Translations under genes and position numbers: made by a program
Shown: piece by piece, positions 3,224 through 41,809 of the stretch
Numbering within the stretch: the first letter of the stretch is position 1
Layout: every line of letters begins with the position of its first letter
The notes under the pieces: model-generated
Databases searched by the model: none
Told to the model about the DNA's origin: nothing
The model's input: only the letters and a program-made list of their open reading frames with translations
Virus record (IMG/VR): IMGVR_UViG_3300035704_000013
Coordinates: 1-41,809 of that record
Direction: 5' to 3' (one strand)
Length of the DNA stretch: 41,809 bases
Source of the DNA: a virus

Positions 3224-3480
3224 TCCGCATGCAGACCGGCGGCGCCGTGCTCTGCATTGTGGAGCGCGGCAACATCGATCGACTCCGCGAGGGGAAGCCG
3301 ATGACGATCGATCTCACAGCGCATCCCGGCGCAAAGGAAGTACTGATCTTCTACACGCCGGACCTCCCGTTCGTGCAGCAAGCGCTGACGTCGCTGATGA
3401 GCGCGAGCGGACGTATCTCGGCCGAGCAGTTGGGCCGCGTGATTGAGGAAGCGAGCAAACGAAGCGAGGTGGTCCGATGA
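3220..3480 (+). CDS. Hypothetical early protein
   Basis: 86 aa from GTG; a second start lies at ATG 3229. Beta-rich N-terminal half (GAVLCIVERGNIDRLREGKPMTIDL) and helical C-terminal half. No known motif. Overlaps both neighbours by four nucleotides. Confidence 0.65.
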   Translation: MIRMQTGGAVLCIVERGNIDRLREGKPMTIDLTAHPGAKEVLIFYTPDLPFVQQALTSLMSASGRISAEQLGRVIEEASKRSEVVR

Positions 3481-3662
3481 AGATCTTGGAGTGGCTCTAC
3501 GACCTGATTTTCGGCTGCCGGCATCCGCACGCGGCGCGCTCGCGCGTGTGGACCGAGCACGACAACGACGGCACCGCGCACGACTATCAGACGTGTCTCG
3601 ACTGCGGCAAGCGGCTGGAGTACTCGCTGATCCGGTTTCGGCAGCAGGAAGAACAAGCGTGA
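3477..3662 (+). CDS. Small zinc-ribbon-like protein
   Basis: 61 aa. CRHPH near residue 14 and CLDCGKRLEYS near residue 40 form a CxH...CxxC pattern typical of one-zinc modules found in many phage and acidobacterial small proteins. The N-terminus (MKILEWLYDLIFG) is hydrophobic and amphipathic. The GTG of the HerA-like gene overlaps its stop. Confidence 0.65.
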   Translation: MKILEWLYDLIFGCRHPHAARSRVWTEHDNDGTAHDYQTCLDCGKRLEYSLIRFRQQEEQA

Positions 3663-5416
3663 AGATTACGATCGGCACCAGCACGGACGGTAAGCCCGTC
3701 AGTTTCGACTTGGACAAGTTGCTGCTCACGCGACTGCTGATCCAGGCCAATTCCGGCGCTGGGAAATCGTGGGTGCTGCGCGTGCTCATCGAGCAGCTCT
3801 TCGGACACGTACAGGTCATCGTCATCGATCCCGAGGGCGAGTTCGCCACGCTGCGAGAAAAGTTCGACTTCGTGCTGGTGGGCAAAGAAGGCGCCGATAC
3901 GCCCGCGGACGTCCGCTCGGCCGAACTCCTCGCGCACAAGCTTCTGGAGATCCGCGCCTCGGCCGTTTGCGACCTGTATGAGATGCGGCCCTCCGACCGC
4001 CACAAATGGGTGCACCTGTTTCTGGAAGCAATGATCGACGCGCCCAAGAAGCTGTGGCACCCCGTTGTGGTTGTCGTGGACGAAGCGCAGTTGTTCTGCC
4101 CGGAGAAGGGCGCCGGCGAATCCGAAGCGTCGGAGGCGATGGTGTCACTCACGACGCGCGGCCGTAAGCGCGGCTATTGTGCAGTGTGGGCCACGCAACG
4201 TCTCGCTAACCTGAAGAAGGACGCGACCTCGATGCTGCTCAATCGTCTGGTTGGCGGAACGTTCGAGGATGTCGACATCAAGCGCGCGCTCGATCTGCTG
4301 AGCGTACCCACGGAGAAAAAAGAACGGAGCGCCTTCGCGCTTCAATTGCGCACGCTGGAGCCGGGAATGTTCTATGCGCTCGGGCGCGCGATCGCGAAAG
4401 AGCGGCTGCTATTCAAGTCGGGGAAGGTGCAGACGAGTCACCCGCAGCCAGGCTCTTCAAAGCATGCCGCCGCTCCTCCACCAACGCCTGAAAAGATCCG
4501 CGATCTTCTGCCCAAACTGGCGGACCTGCCACAAACGGCAGAGGAGAAGGCGCGCACCGTCGCCGAGCTGCAGCGCGAACTTCGCGAAGTGAAGACGCAA
4601 TTGCGGGTCGCGGAGAAGGCAAAGCCGGCGGCGCCACAGATCGATCAAGCCGCGACCGCGCGCGAAGTAGAAAAAGCGGTCCGCACGGCACTGGGCGAGC
4701 GCGATAAAAACTGGCTGCGTGCAGTGCGGGACTACCAGCGCGCACTCAATGCTGGTTTCGCCGTAGCTGTGGCGCAAGTCGGTGAAGCGATCGACCAGGT
4801 GAAGTTCGAAACGCCGGCGGAAGCGAACGTCACCGTTTCCGTCGAGAAATTGCAGCGCGCTGCAATTCGTCCCACCACTCGCCGACCGATACAACATCGA
4901 GAGCGTGCGGCGCCGGTAGTCAATAACTCGAACGGCAGTGGCAGCGAGAGCCACGATCTCGGGAAAGGCGAACGCAAGATGCTGGTCGCGATCGCGCAGC
5001 ACGAGGATGGTGCAACGCGGGCGCAGCTCACACAATTAACCGGCTTCAAGCGATCGACGCGCAACGCATACATCCAGCGTCTTTGCGCGGCGGGCCTGGC
5101 GCGGACTGAAGGCACGAATAGTCCAGTGTTCGCCACCGACGAAGGCATCGCCGCTCTCGGTTCGGACTATGAGCCTTTGCCCACCGGCGATGAATTGCGC
5201 GAGTACTGGCTGCGAAAGCTTCCCGACGGCGAACGAAAGACGCTGGAAGTTCTGGCCCAGTGCTATCCCGCTCCATTGCAGCGTGAGGCGGTGAGTGAGT
5301 GCACGGGGTTCGCGCGGTCGACGCGCAACGCGTATATCCAGCGGCTGGTGGCGCGCCGCCTGGTGACGTTGCCGACGAAGGACGAGGTGAAGGTAGCGGA
5401 CGAGTTGTTTGGATAG
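3659..5416 (+). CDS. HerA/DUF87-type P-loop ATPase with two C-terminal winged-helix repeats
   Basis: 585 aa from the GTG at 3659 that overlaps the previous stop. Walker A is ANSGAGKS at about residues 30-37 and Walker B VVVVVDEAQLF with D141-E142. This is the FtsK/HerA superfamily, which forms hexameric rings that move DNA or protein. An arginine-rich segment (TTRGRKRG) and a WATQR sensor-like motif follow. After a Pro-rich linker and a coiled coil come two copies of a roughly 65-aa winged helix, each with the string STRNAYIQRL, at about 445-510 and 525-580. Possible roles are DNA handling in replication or recombination, or packaging support. It lies in the early operon rather than beside the terminase. 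The ATPase call is firm and the role is inferred. Confidence 0.85.
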   Translation: MKITIGTSTDGKPVSFDLDKLLLTRLLIQANSGAGKSWVLRVLIEQLFGHVQVIVIDPEGEFATLREKFDFVLVGKEGADTPADVRSAELLAHKLLEIRASAVCDLYEMRPSDRHKWVHLFLEAMIDAPKKLWHPVVVVVDEAQLFCPEKGAGESEASEAMVSLTTRGRKRGYCAVWATQRLANLKKDATSMLLNRLVGGTFEDVDIKRALDLLSVPTEKKERSAFALQLRTLEPGMFYALGRAIAKERLLFKSGKVQTSHPQPGSSKHAAAPPPTPEKIRDLLPKLADLPQTAEEKARTVAELQRELREVKTQLRVAEKAKPAAPQIDQAATAREVEKAVRTALGERDKNWLRAVRDYQRALNAGFAVAVAQVGEAIDQVKFETPAEANVTVSVEKLQRAAIRPTTRRPIQHRERAAPVVNNSNGSGSESHDLGKGERKMLVAIAQHEDGATRAQLTQLTGFKRSTRNAYIQRLCAAGLARTEGTNSPVFATDEGIAALGSDYEPLPTGDELREYWLRKLPDGERKTLEVLAQCYPAPLQREAVSECTGFARSTRNAYIQRLVARRLVTLPTKDEVKVADELFG

Positions 5417-5641: not shown

Positions 5642-5955
5642 AGAAGCAGCGCGTTTCTTATCGCCAGGGCGACGTACTGATTCGGCGTATCGACAGCCTG
5701 CCGAAGCAAAAGGCTGTGAAGCGCACCAGCGGTGTGCTGGTGGAAGGTGAGAGCACGGGACATGCACATCGCGTTGCCGAGCTCGAGAAGGCGGAGGTGC
5801 TCGAAATCCAAAACGGCCTATATCTCCACGTCGGCGAAGAAGGCGTGCGGATCGTCCACGAAGAACACGGCGACATCACCCTTCCACCCGGCGACTACGA
5901 GGTCATTCGCCAACGCGAGTACTCCCCGGAGGCGATCCGCAATGTTGCCGACTAG
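5638..5955 (+). CDS. Conserved phage-type protein with GHAHR and HGDITLPPGDYEV motifs
   Basis: 105 aa from GTG. YRQGDVLIRRID, GESTGHAHRVAE, EEGVRIVHEEHGDITLPPGDY and VIRQREYSPEAI form a compact beta-barrel-like pattern with conserved His residues, reminiscent of small cupin-like proteins. From memory, this family often sits beside DUF6745 proteins, as here; the biochemical role is unknown to me. It overlaps the next gene by 14 nt. Confidence 0.75.
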   Translation: MKKQRVSYRQGDVLIRRIDSLPKQKAVKRTSGVLVEGESTGHAHRVAELEKAEVLEIQNGLYLHVGEEGVRIVHEEHGDITLPPGDYEVIRQREYSPEAIRNVAD

Positions 5956-7372
5956 CACGGTGCTGCTCCAGCGGTACACCGAGGCCTGCAATTATCCAGG
6001 CTCGTTGGACGAGGCGAGAGTCGAGGAGGCTCTCGCCCGTTACCTGGCCGTGTTCGGCATCAAGCGCCAGATCCGAAGATTGCGCGCCGGCTGGACGATT
6101 GACAGCGAGCCGTCATTGCGCAAGTACGTCGACGACGTACTCAATGAGTTCGCGAAACGCAATCCATCGGACGCGAGGGACGCGATGGCCGCGAGGGACG
6201 CGAGGGACGCGATGGCCGCGAGGGACGCGAGGGACGCGAGGGACGCGATGGCCGCGATGGCCGCGATGGCCGCGAGGGACGCGATGGCCGCGAGGGACGC
6301 GATGGCCGCGAGGGACGCGATGGCCGCGAGGGACGCGATGGCCGCGAGGGACGCGATGGCCGCGATGGCCGCGAGGGACGCGATGGCCGCGAGGGACGCG
6401 ATGGCCGCGAGGGACGCGATGGCCGCGAGGGACGCGATGGCCGCGATGGACGCGATGGACGCGATGGCCGCGATGGACGCGAGGGACGCGAGGGACGCGA
6501 TGGCCGCGAGGGACGCGATGGCCGCGATGGCCGCGAGGGACGCGAGGGACGCGAGGGACGCGATGGACGCGATGGCCGCGATGGACGCGAGGGCCGCGAT
6601 GGACGCGACGGACGCGATGGACGCGAGGGCCGCGAGGGACGCGATGGCCGCGATGGACGCGACGGACGCGATGGCCGCGATTAGTTCCCTACACCGATTC
6701 GCGCAATGGTGTTTGCAGAGCACCGGCTATTGGGGCTGGTACTGGCGCTTCGAAATGTCGGTGATGGCCGCGTTTCACATCGGCGCCGTGCAGCTGGGAC
6801 GCGAGGAAGTGAAGAAGTGGGCGCTGCCTTGTTACGAAGCTTTCCTGGCCGGCTGCTGGTTCCTGCATTGGACCGAAGACACGCTCTATTGGGTCGCCAA
6901 GCCTACCGTGCACGTGGAGCGGCTTGAGAACGGACGGCGCCTCCACAATGACAAGGGCGCCGCGGTCGAATCTGACGTCGAGAACCTCTACTTCTGGCAC
7001 GGGGTGCTGGTGCCGGCATACGCCGTTGTCCGGCCCGATTGGATCACGGTGAAAGAGATCCAGGCTGAGGAGAACGTCGAAGTCCGCCGCGTGCTGATGG
7101 AGCGATACGGTCTCGGTCGGTACCTGGAGGACAGCGGCGCGAAAAAGATCCACGCCGACGAGCTCGGCGAACTTTACCGCACCGACATCCCCGGCGACGA
7201 ACCGCTGGTGATGGTGAAGGTGATGAACTCCACGCCGGAACCGGACGGATCGTTTAAGCCGTACTTCCTGCGAGTGCCTCCAGCAATCGCACGAGCGCGC
7301 GACGCCGTGGCCTGGACGTTCGGCTACACGGATTCACGGGCCTACATGAAGGGCCTCGAGCAGCAGACGTAA
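5942..7372 (+). CDS. DUF6745-like protein with a 57-unit tripeptide repeat
   Basis: 476 aa from the ATG at 5942. Residues 1-76 form a helical N-terminal domain. Residues 77-247 are 57 tandem [D/A]-A-[M/R] tripeptides. The C-terminal part (FAQWCLQSTGYWGWYWRFE..., LYFWHGVLVPAYAV, AEENVEVRRVLMERYG, PGDEPLVMVKVMNSTPEPDGS) matches what I know of DUF6745, a family of unknown function in which the C-terminal block is preceded by variable repeats. The repeat could be a long helix or a phase-variable length spacer. A perfect terminator follows, so this is the last gene of the early operon. Confidence 0.75.
   Translation: MLPTSTVLLQRYTEACNYPGSLDEARVEEALARYLAVFGIKRQIRRLRAGWTIDSEPSLRKYVDDVLNEFAKRNPSDARDAMAARDARDAMAARDARDARDAMAAMAAMAARDAMAARDAMAARDAMAARDAMAARDAMAAMAARDAMAARDAMAARDAMAARDAMAAMDAMDAMAAMDARDARDAMAARDAMAAMAARDARDARDAMDAMAAMDARAAMDATDAMDARAARDAMAAMDATDAMAAISSLHRFAQWCLQSTGYWGWYWRFEMSVMAAFHIGAVQLGREEVKKWALPCYEAFLAGCWFLHWTEDTLYWVAKPTVHVERLENGRRLHNDKGAAVESDVENLYFWHGVLVPAYAVVRPDWITVKEIQAEENVEVRRVLMERYGLGRYLEDSGAKKIHADELGELYRTDIPGDEPLVMVKVMNSTPEPDGSFKPYFLRVPPAIARARDAVAWTFGYTDSRAYMKGLEQQT
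6170..6682 (+). repeat. 57 tandem copies of a 9-bp unit, G(A/C)CGCGA(G/T)G
   Basis: 513 bp with no interruption and no length change, all in frame. The unit varies at essentially two positions: A/C in codon 1 (Asp or Ala) and G/T in codon 3 (Arg or Met). There are two ACG (Thr) variants, and the last unit ends ATT. A common higher-order pattern is the 18-bp alternation DAM-AAR. Confidence 0.97.
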
Positions 7373-9585: not shown

Positions 9586-9890
9586 CGCATTTCACGTCAC
9601 CGTATCGAGCGCGGGCGCACGAGGTGATTTCGCGCGTGCTCGAGCAGATGCGGGGCAAGCCGGAGAAGGAAATCCGCAAAGCGGTGAGTGCGGCGTATCC
9701 GTTCGGCGATCGGCACTACTGGCCTTACAAGATGTGGTGCGACGAAGTGAAGCGGCTGCTGGGCACGAAGCAAAAGCCGGCGGCAAAAGGCGCATATCAA
9801 AAGTTGCGTGAGTGGGAAGAACTCTATGGCGGCAAACGAGAGGAGGAGCATGACGTATCGGAGACTGCGCAAAAAAGTGAAGGTGGTTGA
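9582..9890 (+). CDS. Conserved phage protein of unknown function (HYWPYKMW family)
   Basis: 102 aa from a GTG overlapping the previous stop. KPEKEIRKAVSAAYPFG and HYWPYKMWCDEVKRLLG are a motif pair I associate with small uncharacterised proteins in many phages. The last 14 codons overlap the Tad2-fusion gene, which starts at 9850. Confidence 0.75.
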   Translation: MTHFTSPYRARAHEVISRVLEQMRGKPEKEIRKAVSAAYPFGDRHYWPYKMWCDEVKRLLGTKQKPAAKGAYQKLREWEELYGGKREEEHDVSETAQKSEGG

Positions 9891-10398
9891 AGCGGTCCAG
9901 TGGATCGGCGACAACCTGAACGAAGTGATGGAATTTGGCGGGAAGTATGTCCACGTTCACGGCCACAAAGAATTGGCAGTAACAACACCGTCCGGCCCGG
10001 TGGACGTTCCGCTCGGCCACTGGATCGTGAAAGGCGCGCCTGAGGATTTCTACCCCGTGCCGCACGAAAACATCGTTGAACTCTTCGAGCCCGCAGATAT
10101 CGGCGGCAGCGAAGGCTTGGATTTCGGTGGCGCCCTGGCTGCGCTGAAGGAAGGCAGGCGAGTGGCGCGGTCCGGATGGAACGGCAAGGGTATGTGGATC
10201 GCACTGTCGCCCGGTTCGACAGATCTGCCGGCGGAGAAGTTCTGGGCCGGTCCGAATCGCGAGTATGCGAAGTCTCAGGGGGGATGTGCGACCGTGCTGC
10301 CGTGTATCACGATGAAAACCGTGAACGGCCCGATCCTGATGGGCTGGCTTGCGTCGCAGACCGACATGCTGGCCGAGGACTGGGAGGTTGTCGACTGA
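9850..10398 (+). CDS. tad2-like: Tad2 (DUF2829) anti-Thoeris domain fused to an N-terminal phage domain
   Basis: 182 aa from ATG 9850, preceded by GAGGAGG. Residues about 90-182 (LDFGGALAALKEGRRVARSGWNGKGMW...MGWLASQTDMLAEDWEVV) match DUF2829, the Thoeris anti-defence 2 family, which binds the cyclic ADP-ribose-type signal made by ThsB and stops ThsA activation. Key family features seen are the SGWNGKGM turn and the C-terminal WLASQTDMLAEDW block. Residues 1-82 (VEAVQWIGDN...LGHWIVKGAPEDFYPVPHENIVELFEP) resemble another common small phage domain with the GDWIVKG...FYP pattern. Having both in one chain is unusual, and the N-terminal domain may add a second ligand or help oligomerise. It heads a set of genes that ends with an Acb2-type gene. 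Activity is inferred from family. Confidence 0.85.
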   Translation: MTYRRLRKKVKVVEAVQWIGDNLNEVMEFGGKYVHVHGHKELAVTTPSGPVDVPLGHWIVKGAPEDFYPVPHENIVELFEPADIGGSEGLDFGGALAALKEGRRVARSGWNGKGMWIALSPGSTDLPAEKFWAGPNREYAKSQGGCATVLPCITMKTVNGPILMGWLASQTDMLAEDWEVVD

Positions 10399-10787
10399 TG
10401 GCGACACGAATCACGAAGCTGGACAAGGACGCACGCAAAGGCGCGAAGCTGCTGAAAGGACAGAAGCAGCTGACGAACGCTGAGATCAACAAGGCGATGA
10501 AGGAAGCCGCCTCGGCGATCGATGCGCTCGAGGCCGACAACAATCAGCTGAAGCGAATGATGGTGTGGGAGCGTGCGCAGCTGATCTACTTCACCAACCT
10601 GGTCATGGAATACACCCGCGGGCAGCGCGTGGTGGGAACTCCGATCCGCGCATTCAACGAGCTGCCCGAACCGGAACAGCAGAAGTTGGTGGCGCGAGCG
10701 GTGGCCGAGTTGAAAGATCCGCGCGTGAACGTGCCGGTGGAAGAAGCGCTGGTGGAACGACCGCCGGCGAAAAAGCTGATCACGTAA
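10398..10787 (+). CDS. Hypothetical protein in the anti-defence cluster
   Basis: 129 aa starting MATRITKLDKDARKGAKLL. Helical, with a predicted coiled coil (INKAMKEAASAIDALEADNNQLKRMMVWER) and a short C-terminal domain (LPEPEQQKLVARAVAELKDPRV). TGATG junction with the Tad2 fusion. Not recognised. Its position between Tad2- and Acb2-type genes makes another counter-defence or regulatory role possible. Confidence 0.65.
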   Translation: MATRITKLDKDARKGAKLLKGQKQLTNAEINKAMKEAASAIDALEADNNQLKRMMVWERAQLIYFTNLVMEYTRGQRVVGTPIRAFNELPEPEQQKLVARAVAELKDPRVNVPVEEALVERPPAKKLIT

Positions 10788-10795
10788 GCGGGTTT

Positions 10796-11035
10796 ATGAG
10801 CGATGGCTCAAGTAGATGGCGCAAGACGAAACGCGGCCGCGAACCGAAAGATGCGCGCATGCAGCAGATTTGCGCGCGACTGCGGCAGGGCGCCACCTAC
10901 AAAGAGATCGCCGCGGAGTTCTCGATCTCGATCGGCCGCGTGGCGCAGATCAGGGAGTACGCCGGCATCGAGCGACGCCACAAAGCGCGCGTCGATGAGA
11001 CTTCCACCACCGAAACCCAGAATCACGGAGGATGA
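10796..11035 (+). CDS. Small helix-turn-helix protein
   Basis: 79 aa from ATG 10796. Basic N-terminus (RWRKTKRGREPK), then ICARLRQGATYKEIAAEFSISIGRVAQIREYAG, a clear HTH of the sigma-70 region 4 or resolvase type. It could regulate the anti-defence genes, in the manner of Aca proteins that accompany anti-CRISPRs; that comparison is inference. It ends 3 nt before the Acb2-type gene. Confidence 0.75.
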   Translation: MSDGSSRWRKTKRGREPKDARMQQICARLRQGATYKEIAAEFSISIGRVAQIREYAGIERRHKARVDETSTTETQNHGG

Positions 11036-11038
11036 TGA

Positions 11039-11254
11039 ATGCCGCACTTCAACCTGGACGAGATCTTCAGCTATCACGCGCCTGAACCGGGCGACCCGGA
11101 GAAGTACGAGGCAATCCGTAGAGCAGCGAAAGACCTGGCACGCGCGATCATCGACAACACGCCCGGATCGGCGGACCAGACGGCGGCGATCCGCAAAGTG
11201 CGTGAAGCGGTGATGGCGGCAAACGCGTCGATCGCAGTTAAAGGCAAGTACTGA
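11039..11254 (+). CDS. acb2-like: Acb2/Tad1-hairpin-domain protein, anti-CBASS or anti-Thoeris sponge
   Basis: 71 aa. IFSYHAPEPGDPEKYEAIRRAAKDLARAII, NTPGSADQTAAIRKVREAVMAANASIA is the two-helix hairpin signature of the Acb2/Tad1 family (T4 Vs.4, phage PaMx33 Acb2). Family members form hexamers that sequester cyclic di- and trinucleotides and so block CBASS; Tad1 members bind gcADPR signals. The length is usual for the minimal domain. GGAGGATGATG lies at its start. The end overlaps a convergent minus-strand gene by 17 nt. The family call is strong; the ligand cannot be told from sequence. Confidence 0.88.
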   Translation: MPHFNLDEIFSYHAPEPGDPEKYEAIRRAAKDLARAIIDNTPGSADQTAAIRKVREAVMAANASIAVKGKY

Positions 11255-12313: not shown

Positions 12314-12856
12314 ATGGAGCACCTTTCAAGTGAGCAGGTTCTGGCACTTTTAGCCGCTGCTCGAGCCGAGCGCGAGCGCGACTGGCTGATGATCCTGGTG
12401 GGCTTCTGGCACGGCCTGAGAGCCTCGGAAGTGGTTGGGTTGATAGCCAGTTCGATCGCCGACGGCCAGATCACGGTACAGCGGCTGAAGGGCTCGATGA
12501 AGACGTCGCAGGACGTCGTGGTAGATGCGGATCCGCTGCTGAATTGTCGCGCGGCGCTGTTTGATTTCATTCGGGGCATGCACCCGAATCAAAGAGTTTT
12601 CCCGGTGTCCAGAGTTCACTTCTGGCGCCTGGTTCGGAAGTACGGCTTGCGCGCGGGAATCCCGAAACGGCTGGCTCACCCGCACATCCTGAAGCACTCG
12701 ATCGCAATGCAAAGCATTCACACGGCAGGGATTGAGAACGTGCGTCAGCACCTGGGACACAAGTCGATGAGCTCCACAGGTCGTTATCTAAAAGTCGACG
12801 ACAAGAGAGCGATGGCGGCGGTGGTGGGAGCGGTAAAGGCTGCGAAGGACGTCTGA
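12314..12856 (+). CDS. Short tyrosine recombinase (catalytic domain only)
   Basis: 180 aa, roughly half the usual integrase length, without the N-terminal arm- and core-binding domains. Catalytic motifs seen: FWHGLRASEVVGL (Arg I), HPHILKHSIAMQ where the usual HxLRH is HILKH (Lys in place of Arg II), LGHKSMSS (His) and GRYLKV (Tyr nucleophile). Short phage recombinases with LKH in this position are known to me, so the change need not kill activity. No obvious Shine-Dalgarno; the gene starts just after an inverted repeat. It could resolve genome multimers or invert a segment; its substrate is unknown. Confidence 0.85.
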   Translation: MEHLSSEQVLALLAAARAERERDWLMILVGFWHGLRASEVVGLIASSIADGQITVQRLKGSMKTSQDVVVDADPLLNCRAALFDFIRGMHPNQRVFPVSRVHFWRLVRKYGLRAGIPKRLAHPHILKHSIAMQSIHTAGIENVRQHLGHKSMSSTGRYLKVDDKRAMAAVVGAVKAAKDV

Positions 12857-39073: not shown

Positions 39074-39108
39074 GCTTGCCCCGCTTTTCTGGGAGACGGG
39101 CGGGAACT

Positions 39109-40236
39109 ATGGTTCCAGATCAACCACAAGGGCCACCGGTCCAACTGCAACACTCACTCGGGCACATCGATTGCCCGGCCTGCAACGCCGCGCGCGATCG
39201 CATCCTTGCGCCCACCGCGTTCGCCAAGTTGAAATTCAAACAAGCCGCGCCCACCTGGTTGGCCGAACACGGGCGCGAGATCTCCGCGAAGACTTATCGC
39301 GATTACGAGTACTACCTGCGCGGCCTGACCCGGTGGTTCGGCGAGCTCACGCTCGATGGCATCCATATCGGGCACATCGAGAGCTATCAGGAGTGGCGCC
39401 AGCATCCGCACCCGGAATTCAAACTCAAGGGCGCGAAGGCCTCGTGCATTAATCACGAGATCAGCACGCTCGCCCAGGTGCTGGCACGCTCGGGACTCTG
39501 GGCCGAACTGAAGAAGCTCTACAAGCCTTTGACACTGGCGAAGGCGCGCGTGGGCAAGGCCCTCGAGATGAACGAGGAGGAGCGGCTATGGAAGGTGGCC
39601 GAGATGTCGCCGCGGTGGAAGGTGGCCTACTGGGCTTCCCTGCTCTCGGCGAAGACGACGACGGACGCGAGCGAGATCCGCCACCTGCACGTCAACGAGG
39701 TGGACCTGCTGCGCAACACGATCTCGATCCGCGAGGGCACGAAGAACAACTTCCGCATGCGCGAAGTGCCGCTGAATGCCAAAGCGCGCTGGGCAATGAT
39801 GCAGATCGTGGAGCGATACTATCGCGAATGCCGCCGGCACAAAGTGGAACCCAGCGATGAGCACTACCTGCTGTTCGCGCGCGCCAAAGCCGGTTCGGGA
39901 CGCAGGAAGGGACCGCCGCAGTTCGACAAGCCGATGAGTTCATGGCGCACCGCCTGGCGCTCGATCCGCAAGAAGGCCGGCCTGCCGAAGTTCCGCTTCA
40001 AGGACCTGCGCCACCACGCGATCACCACCATGCTGGAGAACCCGGAGATCAGCGAGGAGACGGTGAAGAAAGTCGCCGGGCAGGTGTCGCAGAAGATCCT
40101 CGATACGTACTCACACATCCGCATCGAGGCGAAGCGTGAAGCCGTGGCCACACTCGAAAAGAAGCGGCGGAAACCTGTGGAGACGGATGAGCAAAACGGC
40201 GGCGAAACTCCAACTTCGGTGAAGTGGAAGCAATAG
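39109..40236 (+). CDS. int: Phage integrase (tyrosine recombinase) with an altered Arg-I motif
   Basis: 375 aa from ATG 39109, about 29 nt after the predicted transcription start; a TTG at 39076 would precede that start. N-terminal CPACNAARDRIL and the helical arm/core-binding part (LAEHGREISAKTYRDYEYYLRGLTRWFGELTL) lead to the catalytic domain. Motifs: KTTTDASEIRHLHVNEVDL where the usual GxRxxE has Asp at the Arg-I position; KNNFRMREVPL (beta-strand Lys); FKDLRHHAITTMLENP (Arg II); AGQVSQKILDTYSHI, where GH is GQ; and Tyr in DTYSHI as nucleophile. It is next to attR, so it is the likely integrase for tRNA-Arg. From memory, related acidobacterial recombinases also lack the usual Arg-I context. 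Confidence 0.9.
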   Translation: MVPDQPQGPPVQLQHSLGHIDCPACNAARDRILAPTAFAKLKFKQAAPTWLAEHGREISAKTYRDYEYYLRGLTRWFGELTLDGIHIGHIESYQEWRQHPHPEFKLKGAKASCINHEISTLAQVLARSGLWAELKKLYKPLTLAKARVGKALEMNEEERLWKVAEMSPRWKVAYWASLLSAKTTTDASEIRHLHVNEVDLLRNTISIREGTKNNFRMREVPLNAKARWAMMQIVERYYRECRRHKVEPSDEHYLLFARAKAGSGRRKGPPQFDKPMSSWRTAWRSIRKKAGLPKFRFKDLRHHAITTMLENPEISEETVKKVAGQVSQKILDTYSHIRIEAKREAVATLEKKRRKPVETDEQNGGETPTSVKWKQ

Positions 40237-40506: not shown

Positions 40507-40552
40507 TGGCAGGCGCGGCAGGATTCGAACCTGCGACCCTCTGCTTAGAAGG
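40507..40552 (-). repeat. attR core within tRNA-Arg
   Basis: Identical over 46 bp to 374-419; differs at the bases on both sides. It covers the tRNA from the anticodon arm to the encoded CCA. Confidence 0.95.
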
Positions 40553-40584
40553 CAGATGCTCTAGTCCAACTGAGCTACGCGCCC
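40507..40584 (-). tRNA. tRNA-Arg(UCU)
   Basis: 78 nt on the minus strand. Acceptor GGGCGCG/CGCGCCT, D arm GCTC/GAGC, anticodon loop CTTCTAA with TCT, T arm GCAGG-TTCGAAT-CCTGC and encoded CCA. A -10-like TACAAT lies upstream at 40601-40596. The 3' 46 bases belong to the att core and came from the phage, which restores a complete gene after integration. Confidence 0.97.
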
Positions 40585-40802: not shown

Positions 40803-41153
40803 ATGACGAAGGCGGATCTGATTGACGAGGTATCCCGCATCGCGGAGCTGACGCGCAAGGACAGCGAAGTGATCGTGGAGAGCATATTCGACAGCGTGGT
40901 GCGCTCGTTGCGCACCGGAGACAAGATTGAGATCCGCGGCTTCGGCAGCTTTCGCACGCGGCAACGCAAACCGCGTGTCGGGCGCAACCCCAAGACCGGC
41001 GATCGCGTGGAAGTGCCGGCCAAAAAGATTCCGTACTTCAAGCCGAGCAAGGAACTGAAGGACATCGTCAACACCGAACATGGGGTTGGTCAGGCGCCCG
41101 CGCCGCCGCAGACGCATCCCGAAGCCGCCGCAGCGGAACCACAGACGGAATAA
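40803..41153 (+). CDS. HU-family nucleoid protein
   Basis: 116 aa from ATG 40803 with GGGAG 5 nt upstream; a GTG- or ATG-like start further up (40773) is less likely. MTKADLIDEVSRIAEL, KIEIRGFGSFRTRQRKPRVGRNPKTGDRVEVPAKKIPYFKPSKELKD is the full HU/IHF fold with the DNA-binding beta arm (RxxRxGRNPxTG). It bends and compacts DNA as a dimer. A Pro/Ala/Gln tail of about 25 residues (QAPAPPQTHPEAAAAEPQ) extends past the usual 90 aa. Host gene; a 13-bp dyad CCCAA-AAA-TTGGG lies at 40765-40777 in its leader. Confidence 0.95.
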   Translation: MTKADLIDEVSRIAELTRKDSEVIVESIFDSVVRSLRTGDKIEIRGFGSFRTRQRKPRVGRNPKTGDRVEVPAKKIPYFKPSKELKDIVNTEHGVGQAPAPPQTHPEAAAAEPQTE

Positions 41154-41510: not shown

Positions 41511-41809
41511 ATGGAACTGGCATCGCTACGGGAATTATTCGTCGAACAGTTGCAGGACCTTTATTCCGCTGAGAACCAGATCCTGAAGGCGCTGCCCAAG
41601 ATGATCAAGGCGGCGAATTCAGAGCAGCTGAAAGCTGGCTTCCAGGAGCATCTGCGGCAGACTGAGGAGCAGGTGAACCGACTGGATCAGATCTTCGACG
41701 GGCTCGACGAGGATGCGGAAGGCAAGAAGTGCAAGGGCATGGAAGGTCTGTTGAAAGAGGGCGAGGAGCTGATGAAGGAAGACGCCGCGCCCGAGGTGCT
41801 GGACGCGGG
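41511..41809 (+). CDS. DUF892 ferritin-like protein (YciE/YciF family), partial
   Basis: ATG 41511 with GAGGAGAGAGAG upstream; the window ends after 99 codons. MELASLRELFVEQLQDLYSAENQILKALPKMIKAAN, LKAGFQEHLRQTEEQVNRLDQIFDGL and KCKGMEGLLKEGEELM match the DUF892 ferritin-like four-helix family; the ExxL...EHLxQTxxQ residues are the usual metal-site region. These are stress-related proteins of uncertain activity. Host gene, outside the prophage. Confidence 0.92.
   Translation, partial: MELASLRELFVEQLQDLYSAENQILKALPKMIKAANSEQLKAGFQEHLRQTEEQVNRLDQIFDGLDEDAEGKKCKGMEGLLKEGEELMKEDAAPEVLDA

Follow-up and report, generated by a model that had tools for sequence, protein, structure and literature searches.

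Prophage setting of the tad2-like and acb2-like genes

The sequence studied is a 41.8-kb IMG/VR virus record, which is referred to here, over its whole length, as the window. It contains a tad2-like gene and an acb2-like gene with two further small genes between them, and the features on which the analysis depends are listed below.

374-419, no strand: attL, the left one of two 46-bp direct repeats, a tRNA-Arg fragment identical to 40507-40552; left prophage end
9850-10398, + strand: tad2-like gene, 182 aa, two domains, PF11195 on residues 91-181
9850-10101, + strand: N-terminal PGDYG-like phage domain, degenerate, residues 1-84; its 20-letter consensus stretch reads GHWIVKGAPEDFYPVPHENIV in the window
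10120-10392, + strand: Tad2-like domain (DUF2829, PF11195), with the R-x-GWNGKGM and GWLASQTDMLAEDW motifs intact
10398-10787, + strand: gene of about 130 aa, resident in this lineage, with its start overlapping the stop of tad2; homologues in L378-L382 (E 1e-11 to 1e-17)
10796-11035, + strand: small HTH gene, 79 aa, Sigma70_r4 at E 1.8e-5, just over the cut-off; homologues in L380 and L381
11039-11254, + strand: acb2-like gene, 71 aa, hairpin domain only (PF24729), no Tad1 N-terminal domain
39076-40236, + strand: tyrosine integrase, PF00589, E 1.5e-13
40507-40552, no strand: attR, the right one of the 46-bp repeats, lying within tRNA-Arg(TCT) at 40507-40584 (- strand)

Since the 46-bp att repeats in tRNA-Arg(TCT) adjoin the tyrosine integrase, the window holds a whole integrated prophage of about 40.1 kb, bordered by short stretches of host DNA, as the preliminary description of this DNA had proposed. 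The right flank, outside the prophage, holds an IHF/HU-like bacterial gene (40803-41153), and an open ORF at 41511-41807, possibly ferritin-like by eye, runs off the right end of the window. When the terminase was used to search bacterial genomes for the host, a single distant match was obtained (31%, a Patescibacteria MAG); the nearest cultured-phage match of the Acb2-like protein is Acidobacteria phage Tunturi_1 (59%).

Rightward genes are densely packed from about 7.5 to 11.25 kb, and both the tad2-like and the acb2-like gene lie in this run, from which they may be co-transcribed. Elsewhere in the window, 3443-5416 encodes a HerA/DUF87-type ATPase whose C-terminus carries a MarR-like winged helix, an unusual gene for a prophage. 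The ORF at 5732-7372, with DUF6745 at its C-terminus (PF20530, E 2e-41), contains an 18-bp tandem repeat array (6169-6680, 28.9 copies, unit GGACGCGATGGACGCGAG), and the repeat region is open in several frames. A second, short tyrosine recombinase (12314-12856, 180 aa, PF00589) is located just upstream of the terminase genes and is conserved in the relatives L378 (E 6e-81) and L383 (E 6e-83).

Characterization of the Tad2-like protein

A GGAGGAG sequence just 5' of the ORF makes 9850 the likely start of the tad2-like gene. The DUF2829 motifs SGWNGKGM and WLASQTDMLAEDW, both present in this ORF, had led the preliminary description to a Tad2 domain, and the profile search bore this out: PF11195 “Tad2-like” covers residues 91-181 with 84.1 bits (cut-off 25; E 1e-23; profile positions 2-73 of 73). 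PHROG 872/1048 matches the C-terminal half of the protein and PHROG 1810/419 the N-terminal half, while searches of NCBIfam and PADLOC-DB with the tad2-like and acb2-like genes gave no informative match. Comparison with solved chains took in seven distinct Tad2/AcrIIA7 chains with E values from 7e-19 to 4e-12, among them SptTad2 (7e-19), HgmTad2 (6e-16), ModTad2 (2e-13) and SPO1 Tad2 (4e-12). The domain aligns over its full length with SptTad2, HgmTad2 and ModTad2, and in a 32-member alignment it keeps all 12 invariant columns, including R21, GWNG, W80, S83, D86, L88 and DW.

In a poorly resolved tree, the window Tad2 falls among environmental phage proteins, in a group without a characterised member, with the SptTad2/HgmTad2 pair and ModTad2 outside it. 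This position does not allow its ligand to be predicted from related proteins. The ligand also varies between characterised proteins: SPO1 Tad2 binds gcADPR and not 3'3'-cGAMP (PMC11722364), ModTad2 binds His-ADPR (PMC13299392), and CBASS dinucleotides are bound by Tad2 as well, as reviewed in PMC12043709. Thus, “Tad2 means anti-Thoeris” is an assumption. The preliminary description had set Tad2 against Thoeris and Acb2 against CBASS; it named both families correctly, but the neat division is uncertain, since published Tad2 proteins bind both classes of signal.

The same domain also carries anti-CRISPR labels. HgmTad2 bears the deposition title “Inhibitor of Type II CRISPR-Cas system”, a 158-aa fused homologue that matches the window domain by sequence similarity (9kzr, E 5e-15) was deposited as AcrIIA7, and several phage homologues in GenBank are labelled “anti-CRISPR protein”. 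Yet this domain is a nucleotide sponge in SPO1, HgmTad2 and ModTad2 (PMC12043709, PMC13299392), and the labels on the phage homologues were probably carried over by homology. On balance, we consider an anti-CRISPR role for the Tad2-like protein very unlikely.

The N-terminal PGDYG-like domain

The preliminary description had missed the domain fused in front of Tad2. Residues 1-84 align with 60 phage domains, free-standing or fused, whose consensus starts FRKKPVVIEA, and the conserved CKPDIF motif of these domains is absent from the window copy. AlphaFold gave a confident small mixed fold, predicted to be beta-rich (pLDDT 90). In the viral structure library, matches begin at E 9e-7, and the top ones include a “PGDYG protein” (E 1.6e-6) as well as uncharacterised phage proteins; a search for a known fold in the PDB returned no significant match, and matches were found only among viral predicted structures. 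Identity with Acb4 was considered and set aside on description only, because the Acb4 fold is reported to be dsRNA-binding-domain-like (PMC11722364), as against the predicted beta-rich domain of the window.

PGDYG-like/Tad2 fusions occur in at least three separate Tad2 clades (the window, L071 and L087), and the PGDYG-like domain is sometimes encoded beside Tad2 or an Acb2 hairpin. A linkage between PGDYG-like domains and Tad2 appeared in 10 of the 80 loci of the first Tad2 set, always within about 400 bp. Since that set had been queried with the fused protein, and an unbiased Tad2-only scan found a PGDYG-like domain within 1 kb in just 1 of 78 loci, the association is mostly query bias. Starting from PGDYG loci (n=80), Tad2 was within 1 kb in one and a hairpin in two. 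The fusion is still the most interesting loose end of the locus, although the apparent linkage was largely lost once the query bias was removed. It is conceivable, at long odds, that the PGDYG-like domain is itself a counter-defence module, as a second ligand-binding or assembly domain, and that the fused protein would sequester two kinds of signal.

By far the commonest fusion partner of Tad2 in the unbiased scan was a GYVSWSP-type N-terminal domain, found in about 33 of 78 loci. This domain is about 75 aa long with the conserved pattern YIGTK...LVEY.DGG...GYVSWSPKEVFD.AY (for example in L056, L060, L063, L064, L067 and L121), and it adjoins Acb2 in L340 and L368. A profile comparison of the PGDYG-like and SWSP-type domains as a single family found nothing (probability 0.7%).

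Characterization of the Acb2-like protein

The preliminary description had reported a complete Acb2/Tad1 hairpin protein at 11039-11254, three genes on from Tad2, and both the assignment and the gene count, with 10398-10787 and 10796-11035 intervening, proved correct. PF24729 “Acb2_Tad1_hairpin” matches residues 11-66 with 47.6 bits (cut-off 27; E 2e-12; profile positions 1-57 of 58), and PHROGs match at E 7.5e-16 and 5e-15. Further, a profile built from the 43-member Acb2 family retrieved solved Acb2 proteins (9ptq, E 2.5e-5; T4 Vs.4, E 0.0034) and, weakly, Tad1 (E 0.11). Among these 43 relatives, Y12 is at least 90% conserved and R27, 15 residues away, is invariant. The two residues align with Y9/K24 of T4 Acb2 (Vs.4, 7uq2) and are equivalent to Y11/K26 of PaMx33 Acb2, which are pocket residues. 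At the otherwise near-invariant T60 column, the window protein has A.

The structure prediction that the preliminary description had suggested gave a two-helix hairpin (helices 19-40 and 45-66, pLDDT 92.9), but its comparison with known folds was less telling. Foldseek against the PDB yielded no significant match for this model, with all E values above 1, and in a structural second look T4 Acb2 ranked first (Z 6.6) and PaP2 Acb2 fourth (Z 6.2), while unrelated helical proteins reached 6.1-6.4. Because a two-helix hairpin is too simple a shape, fold comparison does not discriminate here and no Foldseek match was to be expected.

A clade of soil phages with the signature SADQTAAIRK takes in both this protein and that of Tunturi_1 and has no characterised member; members of this clade were sought among solved structures and not found. 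Judging from their sequences, both genes are ordinary members, from uncharacterised clades, of known sponge families, and both proteins are expected to be immune-signal sponges, neither of them close to a characterised relative. One or both could instead be relics or serve another role, such as sequestering a housekeeping nucleotide, with Tad2 altered by its degenerate PGDYG-like partner. The substitution at T60, the loss of the best-conserved motif from the fused N-terminal domain and the want of a characterised member in either clade would fit such a history. The Tad2 and hairpin domains, however, are both full length and in frame and keep the invariant residues of their families, which makes this alternative unlikely.

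Comparison within the virus lineage

Relatives were picked by their terminase, with 67-72% identity in L378, L379 and L383 and 51-55% in L380-L382. The gene at 10398-10787, which has no assigned protein family, persists in this position in five of the six (L378-L382), all of which share a conserved ERAQ(V/L)IYYT motif in its product. Next to it in L380 and L381 comes the HTH gene (E 1e-9 and 5e-10), ahead of the terminase genes, and neither tad2 nor acb2 is present there. Tad2 was found in none of the 14 relative contigs, some of which are fragments in which absence is not proof; Acb2 was found in two, elsewhere in the genome (at 35.6 kb and on the opposite strand in that of L378, and in that of L384). 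In L379 and L381, different small ORFs fill the slot upstream of the about-130-aa gene; L381 has nothing in the slot that follows the HTH gene. The tad2-like and acb2-like genes thus appear to occupy separate variable slots that flank two resident genes, and the best reading of their proximity is that genes have accumulated in an accessory region, rather than that a cassette was assembled.

The preliminary description had seen here a dedicated cassette against cyclic-nucleotide immunity, possibly regulated by the HTH gene in the manner of Aca. In such a cassette, Tad2 would act against Thoeris and Acb2 against CBASS, and the genes would have been selected as a unit. The shared strand, the tight spacing and the HTH gene between the two genes all suit this proposal, and the HTH gene itself is real, if just over the Sigma70_r4 cut-off. 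Given that the HTH gene and the about-130-aa gene persist in relatives without either putative sponge gene, the HTH gene is a resident lineage gene and probably not an Aca-type regulator of the two. Moreover, no homologue of it was found among 212 other Tad2, Acb2 or PGDYG loci, and neither an operator-like palindrome nor a sigma-70-type promoter on the coding strand was found in the few intergenic stretches scanned.

Tad2-Acb2 pairing across phages

Pairing of Tad2 with Acb2 is rare among phages. A hairpin was carried by 2 of 50 Tad2 records, and Tad2 by 1 of 50 Acb2 records, about 11 kb away. In the unbiased Tad2-only scan, none of 78 loci had an Acb2 hairpin within 1 kb, and none of 132 Acb2 loci had Tad2. 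Directly adjacent Tad2 and hairpin genes were nevertheless seen in three unrelated phages (L121, 8432-9165; L133, 9863-10662; L126, 9998-10443, where the hairpin frame holds an internal TGA stop); the cases of L089 and of L097, which looks more like Tad1, are weaker. Where a hairpin lies near Tad2, it is mostly less than 500 bp away, above the expectation for uniform placement. This spacing and the adjacent pairs could be taken in favour of a unit under selection, but clustering of small accessory genes explains the close spacing as well as functional pairing does. With the two families so seldom together and the resident genes kept where Tad2 or an adjacent Acb2 is missing, we regard the dedicated cassette as quite improbable.

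Proposed function of the locus

The explanation that we hold to be probable is that two counter-defence accessory genes, encoding a Tad2 and an Acb2 sponge, were acquired independently by an integrated prophage and do not form a built cassette. The Tad2-family domain would oligomerise and bind, without cutting it, a TIR-derived ADP-ribose signal of the gcADPR or His-ADPR type, cyclic dinucleotides, or both. The Acb2-family helical hairpin is predicted to assemble into a multimer that binds CBASS cyclic di- and trinucleotides. If expressed during infection, both proteins would keep the signal from the suicide effectors of the host and so block Thoeris-type defence, CBASS-type defence, or both. 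With or without co-regulation of their genes, two binders would cover a wider range of signals.

With this locus, two known sponge families each gain a putative counter-defence gene from an uncharacterised clade, carried by a soil prophage. It also illustrates that neighbouring sponge genes do not have to be a cassette under joint selection, and that an HTH gene lying between two such genes is not necessarily an Aca; comparison within the same lineage is a cheap control for other claims of an “anti-defence cassette”. The PGDYG-Tad2 fusion points to an abundant and structurally unsolved phage domain with a possible counter-defence role.

Comparison with known systems

The locus resembles acr-aca operons in that small anti-defence genes and an HTH gene stand in one gene run. 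It differs from them in that the HTH gene of the window is conserved without the anti-defence genes, and in that no operator was found in the stretches scanned.

The N-terminal domain of the Tad2-like protein is similar in sequence profile and predicted fold to PGDYG-like phage proteins (PF14083 region; PHROG 1810/419). Unlike them, the window copy lacks the conserved 14-letter motif, and the domain, usually a free-standing gene, is fused here. Compared with the Tad2 family (SPO1 Tad2, HgmTad2, SptTad2 and ModTad2), the window Tad2 is likewise a full-length domain with intact motifs, at 93 aa against 88-104 aa in the solved proteins, whereas here a PGDYG-like domain precedes it in the same polypeptide, of which it makes up the C-terminal half.

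The Acb2-like protein shares with its family (PF24729; T4 Vs.4, PaP2 and PaMx33 Acb2, and Acb2 homolog 43) a small hairpin-only architecture and a Tyr and an Arg/Lys 15 residues apart, and may share the two-helix fold predicted for it. The window clade reads SADQTAAIRK where classical members read like SREKSxAxTK.

One phage with two sponge families is already known, namely Bacillus phage SPO1, which carries Tad2 and Acb4 (PMC11722364). The window is like SPO1 in combining putative sponges of two families in one phage, and differs in the second of them, which is Acb4 with a dsRNA-binding-domain-like fold in SPO1 (PMC11722364) and an Acb2-family protein in the window.
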